From an uncultured Treponema sp. (GTDB lineage: Bacteria > Spirochaetota > Spirochaetia > Treponematales > Treponemataceae), in contig CAKULY010000033.1 in NCBI GenBank assembly GCA_934667505.1, forward strand, positions 1-17,156: 17,156 bases of DNA. Direction: 5' to 3'. Below, piece by piece: positions 1-9,617 of this stretch (the first letter of the stretch is position 1; every line of letters starts with the position of its first letter). The notes below the pieces were generated by a model. It made no database searches, had not been told where the DNA came from, and saw only the letters and a list, made by a program, of their open reading frames with translations. The position numbers and the translations under genes were made by a program.

Positions 1-1506
1 CCTCTAAATGGTTTTGACCGGCCTATAGATATAATCAGGTTGAGCGATGGAAGATTGCTCGTTAGCGAAAGCGCAGGAGACAGGCTTTCTGTTTTTTCGG
101 AAAAAGGAAAGTTCTTAAAGTATTTTGGCTCAAAAGGCCGCAACGTAGGTCAGTTAGTTGGACCCCAATATGCAGCGCAAGATTCCAGAGGAAATATTTA
201 TGTAAGCGACTATGGAAATAGCCGAATTTCTGTTTTTGACAATGAAGGAAATGGTCTTTTTGTTTTTGGAAATAGAAAAGAATCAAATTTTGAAGGATTA
301 AAAGGTCCTACTGGAATAGCTGTTGTAAATGATTATGTTTTTGTTGCAGATGAAATATTGGGATGCATATATCAGTTTGATCAGGCAGGCAATTTTGTAA
401 AAATTTTGTGCGAAAACAAGACTTTTAATCACCCTGAATCTTTAAAGGTTTGGGGAAAATATCTTATTGTATGCGATTCAAACAAGGTTGTTACCGTAGA
501 TACGGATTCTGGCAGCACTTATACAAATATTACAACTGGCAATGCTCCCGACCGGCTTACAAGTGCTGTTCCTGATGTAAATGGAAATATTCTGGTAACA
601 GATGTAAAATCAAATGAAGTTTATGTTATGACTAAGGTTTCTGAGCTTGTAGGCGGACTTTTTGTTCAGGTGGATAGGCTTGATGCTAGCAGGTTTCCAG
701 AAGTAAGATTGGATGTAAAGGTTGAAAATAGATATAGAAATCCAATAGTAGGGCTAAAAGAAAATAATTTTTATATTACGGAGGACAAACGTCCTGTTTC
801 TAAGCTAAAATTTTTAGGAGCTTCTTATAACAGTGATTATGCTGATATAACTATCATAATTGATAGAAGCAAAGAGACTTATGAAAATTCTGAGCAAGTA
901 GATATTGCTGTTCAAGAAATTGCCCAGTCAATGAGCGGTTTCTTTGGCGGAAAAGGCACATTAAGAATCGTTACTGCTGGAAGACTTCCAGTTCTTGAAT
1001 ATAAAGGAAAGGCCGATGGAGCCAAAAAGTTTAGCAGTGAAGGTCTTAAAAATCCTGTTTCAGATTCTGTTTCTTTAGATTTGGCATTTAGACTTGCGGC
1101 AAATGATTTGGTTTCTTCTGGATTAAGAAAGTCGATTATAATAATTTCTGCTGGAAAAATTGGACTTTCTGCATTTGATAAATATAGTCTTACAGATACG
1201 GTTTCCTATTTGAATAACAATGATATAAATTGTTCCTCTGTTATTGTTACGCAGAAAGCTAGCGATGAAGAATTGAGCTTTATACTTCAACGGACGTCTG
1301 GAAAAGAATACTATGTATTTAGACCTGAAGGACTTTCTTTGGTTGTAAAGGAGCTTTTAAATATTCCTACAGGAATCTATTCTTTTAGTTTTGTTTCGGC
1401 AATGAACACTAATTTTGGTGAAGCTTTTCTTCCTATAGAAGTGGAGTCCTATCTTATGAATAGAAGCGGCCGTGATGAAACAGGCTATTTTGCCCCTCTT
1501 GAATAG
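1..1506 (+). CDS. NHL-repeat beta-propeller protein with C-terminal VWA-related domain (5' end outside window)
   Basis: The frame is open from the first base, so the gene begins upstream; the TTG at position 40 is only an internal codon. 501 codons are visible. Codons 1 to about 225 hold about five NHL-type blades, each with a pattern like 'DGRLLVSESAGDRLSVF' or 'GNIYVSDYGNSRISVF', as in six-bladed propellers that bind proteins or ligands. After them comes a stretch of the type 'NPIVGLKENNFYITEDKRPV', which in VWFA-related proteins precedes the VWA fold, and then a VWA-like segment. The MIDAS motif is degenerate: the first strand ends D288-R-S290-K-E instead of DxSxS, and the later strand reads 'IIIISAGK' (codon 383 on), where an Asp-Gly is usual. 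Metal binding is therefore doubtful. The protein is probably exported or periplasmic, but its N-terminus is not visible. Family assignment is good; the function is unknown. Confidence 0.8.
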   Translation, partial: PLNGFDRPIDIIRLSDGRLLVSESAGDRLSVFSEKGKFLKYFGSKGRNVGQLVGPQYAAQDSRGNIYVSDYGNSRISVFDNEGNGLFVFGNRKESNFEGLKGPTGIAVVNDYVFVADEILGCIYQFDQAGNFVKILCENKTFNHPESLKVWGKYLIVCDSNKVVTVDTDSGSTYTNITTGNAPDRLTSAVPDVNGNILVTDVKSNEVYVMTKVSELVGGLFVQVDRLDASRFPEVRLDVKVENRYRNPIVGLKENNFYITEDKRPVSKLKFLGASYNSDYADITIIIDRSKETYENSEQVDIAVQEIAQSMSGFFGGKGTLRIVTAGRLPVLEYKGKADGAKKFSSEGLKNPVSDSVSLDLAFRLAANDLVSSGLRKSIIIISAGKIGLSAFDKYSLTDTVSYLNNNDINCSSVIVTQKASDEELSFILQRTSGKEYYVFRPEGLSLVVKELLNIPTGIYSFSFVSAMNTNFGEAFLPIEVESYLMNRSGRDETGYFAPLE

Positions 1507-1513
1507 AATTAAA

Positions 1514-1726
1514 TATTTAGCCCGAACTTCGAGTTTTTAGGAAAATGAACAAAAGCGTAAGCGAAGTTGCAATTTGTGAAGATTTTGTGCGATAAGAACG
1601 ATTAAGGTTGCACAGCAACCCAAACCAATTCAAACGAAGTGTGAGCACAATCATCTGCAGCAAATTGGAAAGTCGCTGAAAGCATTTTTTTACAATTTAC
1701 AAAAAACTCGACATTCGGGCTATTTA
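1514..1726. mobile_element. MITE-like foldback element with terminal inverted repeats and putative 6-bp target duplication
   Basis: The body is 1520-1720. Its ends are inverted repeats: 1520-1538 begins GCCCGAACTTCGAGTTTTT, and the reverse complement of 1702-1720 differs from it at 2 of 19 positions. The direct repeat TATTTA lies immediately outside both ends (1514-1519 and 1721-1726), as expected of a target-site duplication. The interior is itself an imperfect palindrome: AGCGA 1560-1564 pairs with 1673-1677, CAATTTG 1570-1576 with 1661-1667, and TTGTGC 1585-1590 with 1645-1650. The centre is a perfect hairpin, GGTTGC-ACA-GCAACC, at 1606-1620. There is no ORF. The right-hand direct repeat includes the dinB stop codon. 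It fills the whole gap between two convergent genes, so it could also act as a bidirectional terminator or a structured RNA. Copy number elsewhere in the genome is unknown. Confidence 0.6.
1606..1620. repeat. Apical perfect hairpin of the foldback element
   Basis: GGTTGC (1606-1611), loop ACA, GCAACC (1615-1620): a 6-bp perfect stem at the symmetry centre of the long imperfect palindrome at 1520-1720. No T-run follows, so on its own it is not an intrinsic terminator. Confidence 0.7.
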
Positions 1727-2899
1727 GTCTTTTTCAGTAGAAATAAGCCTTGCTTTTTTTATTTTTATTTCTGGATGTTTGCTTGTTAGATTAAAGATTG
1801 CGTTTTCTACCGCTTGTCGTTTTTTTTCGCCAAAATCAAATAGAACTTCTTGTTTGGCAGACATTTCTTTTTCTACATTTTCAACGCCCACGCCAAGAAG
1901 CCTTATTCCTCTGCCGTTTTCATATTTTTTTTCAAAAAGCGAACAAGTCCTGCGATATAAATCGTCTACACTTGTAATATACTCTTGCTCTGTGCTTTGT
2001 ACAGTAAAAGTTGTAAAATCGTCGTATCGTAATTTTAGCATGACAGTTTTGCTGTAAGATTTTTCTTTTAAAAGGCGAAACATTATCGTGTGGCAAAGTT
2101 CTAAAATCGCTGTTTCTCCGCTATAAATGTCGCACAAGTCGTATTCAAATGTTGTTTCTGCGCTTATGGAATGGCTGCTTTGTTTTGGACTTTCCAAAGG
2201 AATCCCTCGAAGCGTGTTGTACAAAAATGTTCCAGTTCCATCTCCGAAAATAGTTTTTAGATAGTTTAGAGGTTTGTCGTGAAGTTCTTTAGAAGAGCGA
2301 AATCCTGCTTTTTTGATTTTTTCGAGAGTTTTTTTTCCTATCCCCCAAATCTTTGAAAGCGGCAGATTTAGCATAAAATTCTCTTCTTCACCTGGTTCTA
2401 TCCAGAAAAAACCATTCGGTTTGTTTACTTCTGAGCAAAGTTTTGCAAGATATGCGCTTGAAGCAAGTCCCACAGAAACGGTTAGTCCAGTTTTTTCAAA
2501 AATTTCAGCTTTTATTTTAAGTGCAAGATTTTGAGGTTCCCCAAATAGCATTTGGGTTCCTGTAATATCCATGCTAGCTTCGTCAATTGAAAGCTGCGTA
2601 ACGTCTGGAGTGTATTGCTTTAAAATTTCCATTACGAAAGATGATATTTGTGAATATCTATGGTAGTTGCCATGCGTAAATATTCCTTGCGGACATAGCT
2701 TATACGCTTGGAATGTTGGCATGGCAGAATGGACTCCAAATTTTCTTGCTTCATAAGATGCCGTGGAAACAACGCTTCTTCGCTCGCCTGGCAAACCTCC
2801 GACTATTACAGGTTTCCCTTTCCATTCGGGGTGGTCTAACTGTTCTACAGAGGCAAAGAAAGCGTCCATATCTACATGAATAAAATACTTTTCTTTCAT
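1724..2899 (-). CDS. dinB: DNA polymerase IV (Y-family translesion polymerase)
   Basis: 391 aa, normal family length. It is a low-fidelity polymerase that copies past DNA lesions. The N-terminus 'HVDMDAFFASVEQ' carries the first metal ligand D10 and the steric-gate region F14-F15. 'SIDEASMD' gives the catalytic D106 and E107; the residue after EA is Ser where Tyr or Phe is usual. 'VSVGLASSAYLAKLCSEVNKP' is a typical palm/fingers block, followed by a helix-hairpin-helix around 'IWGIGKKTLEKIKKAG' and a little-finger domain. Near the C-terminus, QEVLF (about residues 350-354) matches the sliding-clamp binding pattern QxxLF. The ATG overlaps the stop of the upstream membrane-protein gene (ATGA, 2896-2899), which implies co-transcription and translational coupling. 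No LexA-type operator was recognised nearby. The stop codon lies in the right flank repeat of the foldback element. Confidence 0.95.
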   Translation of the reverse strand: MKEKYFIHVDMDAFFASVEQLDHPEWKGKPVIVGGLPGERRSVVSTASYEARKFGVHSAMPTFQAYKLCPQGIFTHGNYHRYSQISSFVMEILKQYTPDVTQLSIDEASMDITGTQMLFGEPQNLALKIKAEIFEKTGLTVSVGLASSAYLAKLCSEVNKPNGFFWIEPGEEENFMLNLPLSKIWGIGKKTLEKIKKAGFRSSKELHDKPLNYLKTIFGDGTGTFLYNTLRGIPLESPKQSSHSISAETTFEYDLCDIYSGETAILELCHTIMFRLLKEKSYSKTVMLKLRYDDFTTFTVQSTEQEYITSVDDLYRRTCSLFEKKYENGRGIRLLGVGVENVEKEMSAKQEVLFDFGEKKRQAVENAIFNLTSKHPEIKIKKARLISTEKD

Positions 2900-7661: not shown

Positions 7662-9617
7662 ATGATGGACGATTTATTTGACGTGCAATCTGCAATTGAT
7701 GAAAATAAAAAGAAAATACGTATTTCAGAACTTGAAAAACTTATAAAGAAATATCAGGATTCTTATTATAATGGAGAAGCTCAAATAAGCGATCAGGAAT
7801 TCGATTCGCTTTGGGATGAGTTAAAAAATCTTAATCCTAATAATTTGCTGTTTCAAAAAATAGGAGCAGATTCTGGTAACTTTGCAAAAGTTCATCACGT
7901 AATGCCAATGGGAAGCCAAGAAAAAGCTGCAAATCCAGAGCAATTTTTATCTTGGGCGCAGAAGCATGTTTATTCAGAATATCTTGTGGAATACAAATTG
8001 GACGGAGCTTCTCTTGAGCTTCAGTATGTTCATGGAAAACTGCAAAAGGCTGTTACTCGTGGAGACGGTTCTGTAGGCGACGACGTAACTGCAAATGCTA
8101 TAAAAATGCAAGGCGTAATAAAAAATCTTTCTTATGAAAATTCCGTCTGCGATTTTACGGGTGGTATTCGTGGCGAAGTTATAATGAAAAGAAGTGTTCA
8201 TAAGCAAAAATATTCTGACAAAGCTAATTGCAGAAATGCGGCTAATGGCATAATGAAGCGAAAAGATGGCGAAGGAAGTGAAAATCTAACGCTCATAGCT
8301 TATGACGCTCTTTGCACAGAAGGAAAATCTCCATTTAATGATGAAGAGCAGAAAATAGAATGGCTAAAGGAACTTGGATTCAATACAGTAGTGCTAAATA
8401 TCTGCCGCTCTGCGCAAGATGTTATAGATTACCGTGCCCAAGTCATGGATTTAAGAAAAAATCTTGACTATGATATTGACGGTCTTGTTATAAAAGAAAG
8501 AACGATAAATCTTTCTGATGCTTCAAGAGCGAGACCCGACCATCAGATAGCTTTTAAGTTTAGCTTGGAAGAAGCTGTTTCTACTTTAAAGGGTGTTGAA
8601 TGGAGCATAAACGGAGGAACGTATACGCCTGTAGCTATTTTTGATGAAGTATCGCTAAATGGAACTACTGTACAGCGGGCTAGCCTTGCGAATCCTGACA
8701 CGATGCGAAATTTAGGCGTAAAAATCGGTTGCAAGGTTGTAGTAGTAAAACGTGGCGAAATAATTCCAAAAATAGAATCGGCAATCCACTTGAAGAATTC
8801 TGTTGAAACCGAAATTGAAATGCCTCATGTTTGCGAGACTTGCGGAACTGAGCTTATAGATGAAGGCTCAAGACTTTTTTGTCCAAATAAAAACTGTCCT
8901 AAAAGGGTAGTTCACCAAGTTATGAAATGGGTTCAAGTTGTAGATATTAGGGATTTAGGTTCTACGCTGATAATGAATCTTTGTTCAAATGGAAAAATTC
9001 GCAGCATATCCGATATTTATGCTCTTAGCCTTGAAGACTTAATACCATTTTTTTTAAACGAAGAAAGTGTTGCTAAAGAAAAAAAATCCTTAGGAGCGGA
9101 AAAAGTTTTAAAATCTATTCAAAATCATAAAAGAATGTCCCTTTCAACTTTTGTGGCTGGCTTTGATATTGAAGGCATTGGCGAAACAACAGTTGAAAAG
9201 CTGGTTGCGGCAGGCTATAACACTTTAGAAAAATTGCTTTCGCTTACAGAAGAACAAATTGCTAAAGTATATGGTTTTGCTCAAGTAATGGCAAAAATTG
9301 CTGTAGAAGGTTTTGCCGAAAACCGGGAAGAAATGGAAAAACTTGCGTTGAACACAATAACAATCGAAAAATCTGCAGAAGGCTTGCTAAATGGAAAATC
9401 TTTTTGCTTTACAGGTGAACTTGTAAAAATGAAGCGTTCTGAGGCGGAAAAGATTGTAAAATCCTTAGGAGGCACATGCAAGTCTTCTGTTACAAAAGAC
9501 CTTTCTTATCTTGTGACTAACAATCCCTCTTCTGGCTCTTCTAAAAATAAAAAAGCTGTAGAACTAGGAATTTCCGTAATCGATGAAGACTCTTTTTTCA
9601 AGTTAATAGGGCAGTAA
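7662..9617 (+). CDS. ligA: NAD-dependent DNA ligase
   Basis: 651 aa (family about 670). It seals nicks with NAD+ during replication and repair. The Ia domain 'YQDSYYNGEAQISDQEFDSL' binds NMN. The adenylation lysine is K112 in KLDGAS, where most LigA have KxDGxA, and 'MPMGSQEKA' (81-89) replaces the usual 'PMLSLxNAF'. Then come 'RGDGSVGDDVT', the 'DIDGLVIK' strand, 'AFKFS', an OB fold, a four-Cys zinc site (C391, C394, C407, C412; short C-x12-C spacing), helix-hairpin-helix repeats ('GFDIEGIGETTVEKL') and a C-terminal BRCT domain (about 575-651, 'FTGELVKMKRSEAEKIVKSLGG'). AGAGGA (7655-7660) is only one base from the first ATG (7662), so the second ATG at 7665 may be the true start. Five bases separate its stop from the next gene. 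Confidence 0.95.
   Translation: MMDDLFDVQSAIDENKKKIRISELEKLIKKYQDSYYNGEAQISDQEFDSLWDELKNLNPNNLLFQKIGADSGNFAKVHHVMPMGSQEKAANPEQFLSWAQKHVYSEYLVEYKLDGASLELQYVHGKLQKAVTRGDGSVGDDVTANAIKMQGVIKNLSYENSVCDFTGGIRGEVIMKRSVHKQKYSDKANCRNAANGIMKRKDGEGSENLTLIAYDALCTEGKSPFNDEEQKIEWLKELGFNTVVLNICRSAQDVIDYRAQVMDLRKNLDYDIDGLVIKERTINLSDASRARPDHQIAFKFSLEEAVSTLKGVEWSINGGTYTPVAIFDEVSLNGTTVQRASLANPDTMRNLGVKIGCKVVVVKRGEIIPKIESAIHLKNSVETEIEMPHVCETCGTELIDEGSRLFCPNKNCPKRVVHQVMKWVQVVDIRDLGSTLIMNLCSNGKIRSISDIYALSLEDLIPFFLNEESVAKEKKSLGAEKVLKSIQNHKRMSLSTFVAGFDIEGIGETTVEKLVAAGYNTLEKLLSLTEEQIAKVYGFAQVMAKIAVEGFAENREEMEKLALNTITIEKSAEGLLNGKSFCFTGELVKMKRSEAEKIVKSLGGTCKSSVTKDLSYLVTNNPSSGSSKNKKAVELGISVIDEDSFFKLIGQ

Follow-up and report, generated by a model that had tools for sequence, protein, structure and literature searches.

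MITEs are commonly regarded as decaying junk in which the ends are conserved. RUP repeats are the same kind of intergenic foldback repeat as the NEMIS/Correia and ERIC families, and the extragenic palindromes of REP/BIME-RAYT systems are dispersed behind genes. NEMIS/Correia and ERIC-type repeats are described as short, intergenic sequences that are cotranscribed with their neighbours and fold as RNA hairpins (PMC1590033), and MITECca01 of Cardinium is described as an IS982-derived, high-copy-number element of ~240 bp that has no transposase (PMC9769881). Candidate RNAs of the human microbiome, defined by covariation, include candidates from Treponema (PMC8040213).

The foldback element described here resembles MITECca01 in having no transposase and in sharing its ends with an IS982-family element; MITECca01 comes from another phylum, and the words 'hairpin' and 'secondary structure' are absent from the text of its report, so that no folded core is reported there in those words (PMC9769881). 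Unlike NEMIS/Correia, ERIC and RUP repeats, the Treponema core combines covarying stems with junction strands that are conserved, and the arms around it differ between occurrences. Many Treponema cores begin with GTAG or GGAG, as REP/BIME do; unlike REP/BIME-RAYT, the core has no association with Y1 transposases, and its fold is branched and far larger. Both Treponema candidates that the text of the microbiome study names precede ribosomal protein genes, unlike the core (PMC8040213). No description of the core family was found in the literature, searched among open-licence papers. As far as sequence comparison can tell, the core is no ordinary cargo: a covarying module dispersed genus-wide.

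The foldback element and its IS982-type ends

The window, that is the whole 17,156-nt stretch of DNA analysed here, is called Treponema-like since the DinB that it encodes shares 66% identity with the DinB of Treponema sp. RUG314 (locus L001, genome G001). It holds one copy of the element, whose body the initial annotation had placed correctly at 1520–1720 (201 bp; Table 1). The terminal inverted repeats proposed there hold up: the left end GCCCGAACTTCGAGTTTTT and the reverse complement of the right end GCCCGAATGTCGAGTTTTT match at 17 of 19 positions, and the arms can be extended to 1518–1554 and 1686–1722 at 81% match. The direct repeat TATTTA is exact on both sides, and the central hairpin GGTTGCACAGCAACC lies where it had been predicted. 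The fold itself was borne out on both strands, with –68.6 kcal/mol (z –6.7) for the plus strand and –69.8 kcal/mol (z –8.1) for the minus strand, and none of 200 shuffled sequences folded as well as the element on either strand. The 201-bp element contains no ORF of at least 80 aa. Because the upstream gene with an NHL repeat ends at 1506 and dinB lies on the minus strand, the flanking genes are convergent. The right-hand duplication does contain the dinB stop, as had been claimed; since that TAA (1724–1726) sits inside the right TATTTA, one copy of TATTTA alone would retain the same stop.

Table 1 Features of the element and its neighbours in the window
Feature	Position	Strand	Remarks
Left target-site duplication TATTTA	1514..1519		Exact repeat of 1721–1726
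Left terminal inverted repeat, IS982-type MITE	1520..1538	+	Pattern TAGCCCGAANNTCGAGTTTT, at most one mismatch, in 52/196 genus genomes
5' linker, outer stem to core	1539..1550	+	
Conserved structured core, candidate RNA, plus-strand sense	1551..1691	+	R1/R2 matches, covariation
Basal GC clamp, 5' side, pairs with 1682–1683	1555..1556	+	Columns 5–6/133–134 invariant in 38/38 rows
Long helix, 5' side, pairs with 1660–1677	1560..1577	+	Two-sided changes in 10/16 pairs
Junction helix, 5' side, pairs with 1645–1656	1580..1590	+	Two-sided changes in 4/10 pairs
Junction hairpin GGTTGCACAGCAACC	1606..1620	+	No two-sided changes within the hairpin in alignment A2
Second small junction hairpin	1634..1642	+	ACGAAGTGT in window copy; GCGNAGCGC in 32/38 rows
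T-tract, 3' end of core	1685..1691	+	T-run of at least 5 in 68/91 copies
Right terminal inverted repeat	1702..1720	-	
Right target-site duplication TATTTA	1721..1726		dinB stop codon in its last three bases
dinB (DNA polymerase IV), convergent neighbour	1724..2899	-	PF00817
NHL-repeat gene, upstream neighbour of core	1..1506	+	Frame open at window start

When one mismatch is allowed, ends of the form GCCCGAAnnTCGAGTTTT preceded by TA are present in 52 of 196 Treponema genomes, compared with three for a reversed control pattern. Where both ends were readable (33 rows, four of them duplicates), exact 5–7-bp duplications were found to flank 20 of 29 end pairs, as against 8% of crossed pairs, and none of 20,000 permutations reached 20; all the duplications read TA-N(1-3)-TA, in several different sequences. 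L184/L185 and, separately, L203/L206/L217 each seem to represent one site met in several species, and merging such apparent orthologs reduces the 29 pairs to about 26 sites, 17 of them with a duplication. A transposase with matching ends is present in a relative: L214 (342–1305, 964 bp; unequal flanks TACTTA/TATTTA) holds an open 301-aa IS982-family frame, 289 aa of which score 161 bits against the NCBIfam IS982 model NF033520 (cut-off 130). An IS982-type relative at L188 (528–1518, 991 bp, TAAATA duplication) is split over two frames, and the larger piece of this broken frame scores 111 bits, below the NCBIfam cut-off. A search for IS982 transposases in four end-rich genomes (G052, G180, G161 and G045) found none, which is not decisive for G052 since its contigs often stop at ends.

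The window element thus shares its ends with an IS982-family element, is shorter than ~300 bp, contains no transposase gene and is flanked by a target-site duplication, and relatives carry multiple copies per genome. The MITE reading of the initial annotation is supported by these relatives, in which copy search and alignment defined the same ends, with their own target duplications, at many dispersed sites; as judged from them, the element is not a single copy kept by vertical descent. Behind dinB, the sequence of the nearest relative in the scan (L001) differs, by eye, and no empty site was recognised. By its ends, duplication and relatives, the window feature is classed as a new non-autonomous MITE of the IS982 family, of an ordinary kind.

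Several other interiors were seen within IS982-type ends. At one apparent orthologous MITE site (L203, L206 and L217 in G076, G079 and G161) the bodies measure 309, 66 and 262 bp, the interior being cut or exchanged while the ends and a TATTA/TAATA duplication are kept. At L114, L128, L130 and L227 (G180, G073) a different foldback interior with nested hairpins is enclosed; a GCTAGCTAGCG-like stretch recurs in several of these interiors, which may represent a second structured cargo. Hairpins between A- and T-tracts form a third type of interior, at L215, L216 and L221 (G052, G161); 63 IS982-type ends were counted in G052.

The structured core and its outer arms

With the window element as query, at least 41 matches were obtained in the RUG314 genome (G001), 40 of 85 candidate places having been scored. 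In 11 other Treponema genomes the same query gave short pieces only in six and nothing in five; one longer match each came from two further genomes, G155 and G201. Full cores are present in 37 G001 copies. Pairwise identity in G001 is 0.81 in the core and 0.57 in each arm, compared with 0.50 for shuffled arms, and the IS982-type end pattern occurs only three times in that genome. G001 therefore reverses the usual picture of a MITE: the inside is conserved, the ends decay, and the fold is kept copy by copy. The MITE label accounts well for the ends and duplications of the window element, but it omits the conserved structured core, which is dispersed elsewhere without these ends; the conservation of this interior, in both sequence and fold, across dozens of copies elsewhere is invisible from the window alone.

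The 38 cores of alignment A2 are those of the window and of the 37 G001 copies; A2 omits L111 and L112, which belong to other genomes, as well as two fragments (L146 and L151), two small pieces and one further G001 copy. RNAalifold assigned 35 pairs to these cores, 15 with two-sided changes, and 98.0% of 1330 cells pair on that structure. Two-sided cells number 95, versus 26.6 in shuffles and 8–18 when partners are slid by 1–3 columns. Columns 39–98 of the junction helix, for instance, read UA in 20 cores, AU in 9 and GC in 9, and columns 10–128 read AU in 19, GC in 18 and GU in 1. The core is laid out as a GC clamp, an adjoining asymmetric internal loop (in many copies GUA opposite either GAAA or GAGA), a long helix and, beyond it, a three-way junction; the two small hairpins of this junction show little covariation themselves. 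The first junction hairpin has a GNA loop (C-GNA-G) in 26 of the 38 cores, a loop type that is very stable in DNA. The joining strands are partly invariant, and several unpaired junction residues are unchanged in 38 of 38 rows. The window core scores 135 bits with covariance model R1 and 124 bits with R2, the window being in the training set of both. At the gathering score, Rfam matched nothing at the element (the only gathering match was SRP RNA in L159), and among six sub-threshold matches at E up to 5 in the window and three G001 loci none corresponded to the core. On the evidence of these alignments, the core fold is held by compensatory change, in a covarying family without an Rfam match.

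Pairing extends to the outer arms. Across the 38 copies, a left arm scores on average 16.8 against its own right arm and 11.0 against those of others (0 of 20,000 permutations), and the own partner ranks first in 17 copies. Own versus cross pairing is likewise 17.8 versus 8.2 in G104 (4 copies), 15.1 versus 10.3 in G188/G186 (9 copies) and 14.0 versus 8.3 in G069 (8 copies); the difference is weaker in G035 (10.3 versus 8.2, 10 copies) and G018 (16.7 versus 15.1, 10 copies), where arms are shared. Flanks beyond the arms score 7.5 in this comparison. The outer stem is maintained as well, with copy-specific arms that on average pair best within a copy. The notion, drawn from these copy-specific arms, that a pre-existing palindrome served as insertion target was rejected for the G188 copy at 7739–7822: at the empty site in G186 the arms are missing.

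Long copy-specific inverted repeats also surround the cores at L296, L302 and L313 (for example ACAGACACAAAAAC..TGTGTCTGT) and resemble the ends of other MITEs.

Dispersal, retention and orientation of the core

Model R1 matched 16 of 200 genus genomes, and R2, built from diverse R1 matches, matched 47 of 196 Treponema genomes at E 0.01; owing to that origin of R2, its short 85-nt matches (G186, G188, G098 and G107) have mainly the base motif in common and not the junction. At the order level 15 of 194 genomes matched at E 0.001, 14 of them already in the genus searches and one (G273) new. Core counts per genome are lower bounds, at most 16–17 candidates having been scored in each. IS982 is unlikely to move all cores: among ten core-rich genomes examined, G034, G035, G018, G069, G188, G186, G195, G136 and G104 yielded no IS982 transposase, and the tenth, G001, holds only an IS982 fragment with a stop. 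A RAYT/REP reading was rejected on the counts of Y1 transposases, which occur in 11 of 47 core-positive and 40 of 149 core-negative genomes and in one of the 11 genomes with at least eight core matches. Integron attC sites were also considered; dispersed single copies and the TA..TA duplication look unlike attC. Three patterns searched in viral contigs gave no exact matches. For two copies examined in G069 (L320), repeats elsewhere in the genome end approximately at the core and not at the arms. In genomes other than that of the window, the core appears to be dispersed separately from IS982 ends, and we infer that a mover acts there.

Comparison of related genomes points to both gain and retention of copies. 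The G188 copy at 7739–7822 is absent in G186, G098 and G103, and a 15-bp direct repeat flanks the insert; the G034 copy at 8053–8198, which by eye seems to lie at a stop codon like the window copy, is absent in G195 and G010 and present in G035. In three G034–G035 ortholog pairs the cores are 0.88, 0.84 and 0.88 identical, versus 0.68–0.78 for the adjoining 60-nt flanks, which speaks for selection after insertion, and in one pair the stem has changed on both sides; at a fourth site G035 has a different foldback element. Core identities of other orthologs are 0.88 (G034–G195), 0.92 (G035–G195), 0.89 (G188–G186) and 0.95 (G155–G201), and for G107–G098 the core (0.96) is less conserved than one flank (1.00). 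In these few ortholog sets copies, once present, seem to persist; the similarity among cores could also stem from gene conversion between copies.

The mispairs support a strand asymmetry: G-U outnumbers A-C by 92 to 15 cells and 17 to 2 pairs in 37 rows from other genomes, a count favoured by the fitting of this alignment (A5) to a model that favours G-U, and more weakly within A2 (61 versus 17 cells, 9 versus 5 pairs). In tandem gaps the core mostly runs with transcription, 42 copies being sense and 12 antisense of 54, with a p of 5e-5 that is optimistic because copies are related and ORF calls simple; the sense share is 15 of 22 in G001 (p 0.13) and 27 of 32 in other genomes. The 37 G001 copies divide into 15 tandem sense, 7 tandem antisense, 11 divergent and 4 convergent contexts (15, 6, 13 and 3 for tandem same, tandem opposite, divergent and convergent with another ORF cut-off), and 26 lie upstream of a gene start. 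The 67 copies from other genomes are a subset of the matches, 10 of them without a callable context; divergent contexts make up 28 of 104 overall.

Where the preceding gene has the same sense, its stop precedes the core by 25–49 nt in 16 of 19 G001 copies and, in other genomes, by 2–25 nt (15 of 36) or 32–55 nt (7 of 36). Runs of at least five T follow 25 of 36 G001 cores, and runs of at least five A precede one of 36; in other genomes T-runs (42 of 54) and A-runs (41 of 54) are equally common. The stop distances and sense T-runs fit an RNA that is cotranscribed with the upstream gene and forms its end. By terminator criteria the picture is mixed: a T-run of at least five accompanies 68 of 91 cores, yet the fold is branched and ~140 nt long and some sites are divergent, where a terminator makes little sense. 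A scan of the window for simple terminators returned a single weak site, which lies at the right end repeat, and none at the core. The divergent sites and the conserved junction are not explained by a gene-end RNA; a protein or ligand contact is conceivable for the junction.

A possible gene-end role and its alternatives

We favour, with moderate confidence, an IS982 MITE that carries a separately dispersed structured-RNA module acting as a gene 3'-end element. The frame would be an IS982-family MITE inserted at the dinB stop codon with the 6-bp TATTTA duplication, and the cargo a ~140-nt structured module of a Treponema-wide dispersed foldback family. RNA of the module would most likely be made from the strand reading the NHL gene, and the core beside the stop codon probably serves as the 3' end of that gene, whether by termination through hairpin and T-tract or by mRNA stabilisation or processing; such a role would account for the compensatory changes that preserve the structure. 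More tentatively, the family as a whole may be an undescribed, genus-wide dispersed structured RNA that settles behind stops in sense, can be moved by unrelated movers and has become a domesticated gene-end module. That module would comprise a three-way-junction core between A-/T-tracts, copy-specific outer helices and a fold kept by compensatory change, would reach tens of copies in the richest genomes, and would have the IS982 MITE as its carrier in the window.

The conservation of the core could instead reflect repeated spread, if the core were the mobility part of a second mobile element whose mover recognises the fold as ssDNA or RNA. The G069 repeats that end near the core, the lineage-specific gain in G188 with its direct repeat, and the C-GNA-G loop of one junction hairpin are in keeping with this, but orthologous copies remain in place and still pair, cores lie in sense in tandem gaps and Y1 transposases are not associated, and we consider such an element rather unlikely. 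We give still less weight to a sensor or trans-acting RNA whose junction binds a ligand or protein and whose many copies would resemble a large regulon: the invariant unpaired junction residues and the gene starts downstream of most G001 copies would suit it, but those copies share no single context and the window copy has a gene end on either side.

Template switching in quasi-palindromes, a form of concerted mutation, would keep arms and stems complementary without selection and would yield copy-specific arms that pair; it should also erase internal loops, but hardly any variation is seen in the asymmetric basal loop and in parts of the junction strands, which makes this explanation very improbable. 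A local, vertically inherited terminator or RNA that is not mobile, as the convergent genes and T-tract might suggest, is contradicted by the target duplication, the dispersed copies with the same ends and the matching IS in relatives, and we give it almost no credence. Under the favoured gene-end reading, should cores indeed work as gene ends, mobile DNA can rewrite bacterial transcript ends, and the dozens of natural copies in one genome are a testable set; at the least, the cores provide a covarying family without an Rfam match for annotation across Treponema.

Two further groups of loci concern the occupancy of single intergenic gaps. At L316 (6343–6486) and L317, two related species have unrelated foldback elements in the same gap, as if gene-end hairpins replaced each other. 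The stretch at L318 (6372–6455) and the matching gaps in L341, L346, L347 and L348 mark an insertion hotspot, the relatives having other palindromic repeats there or none.
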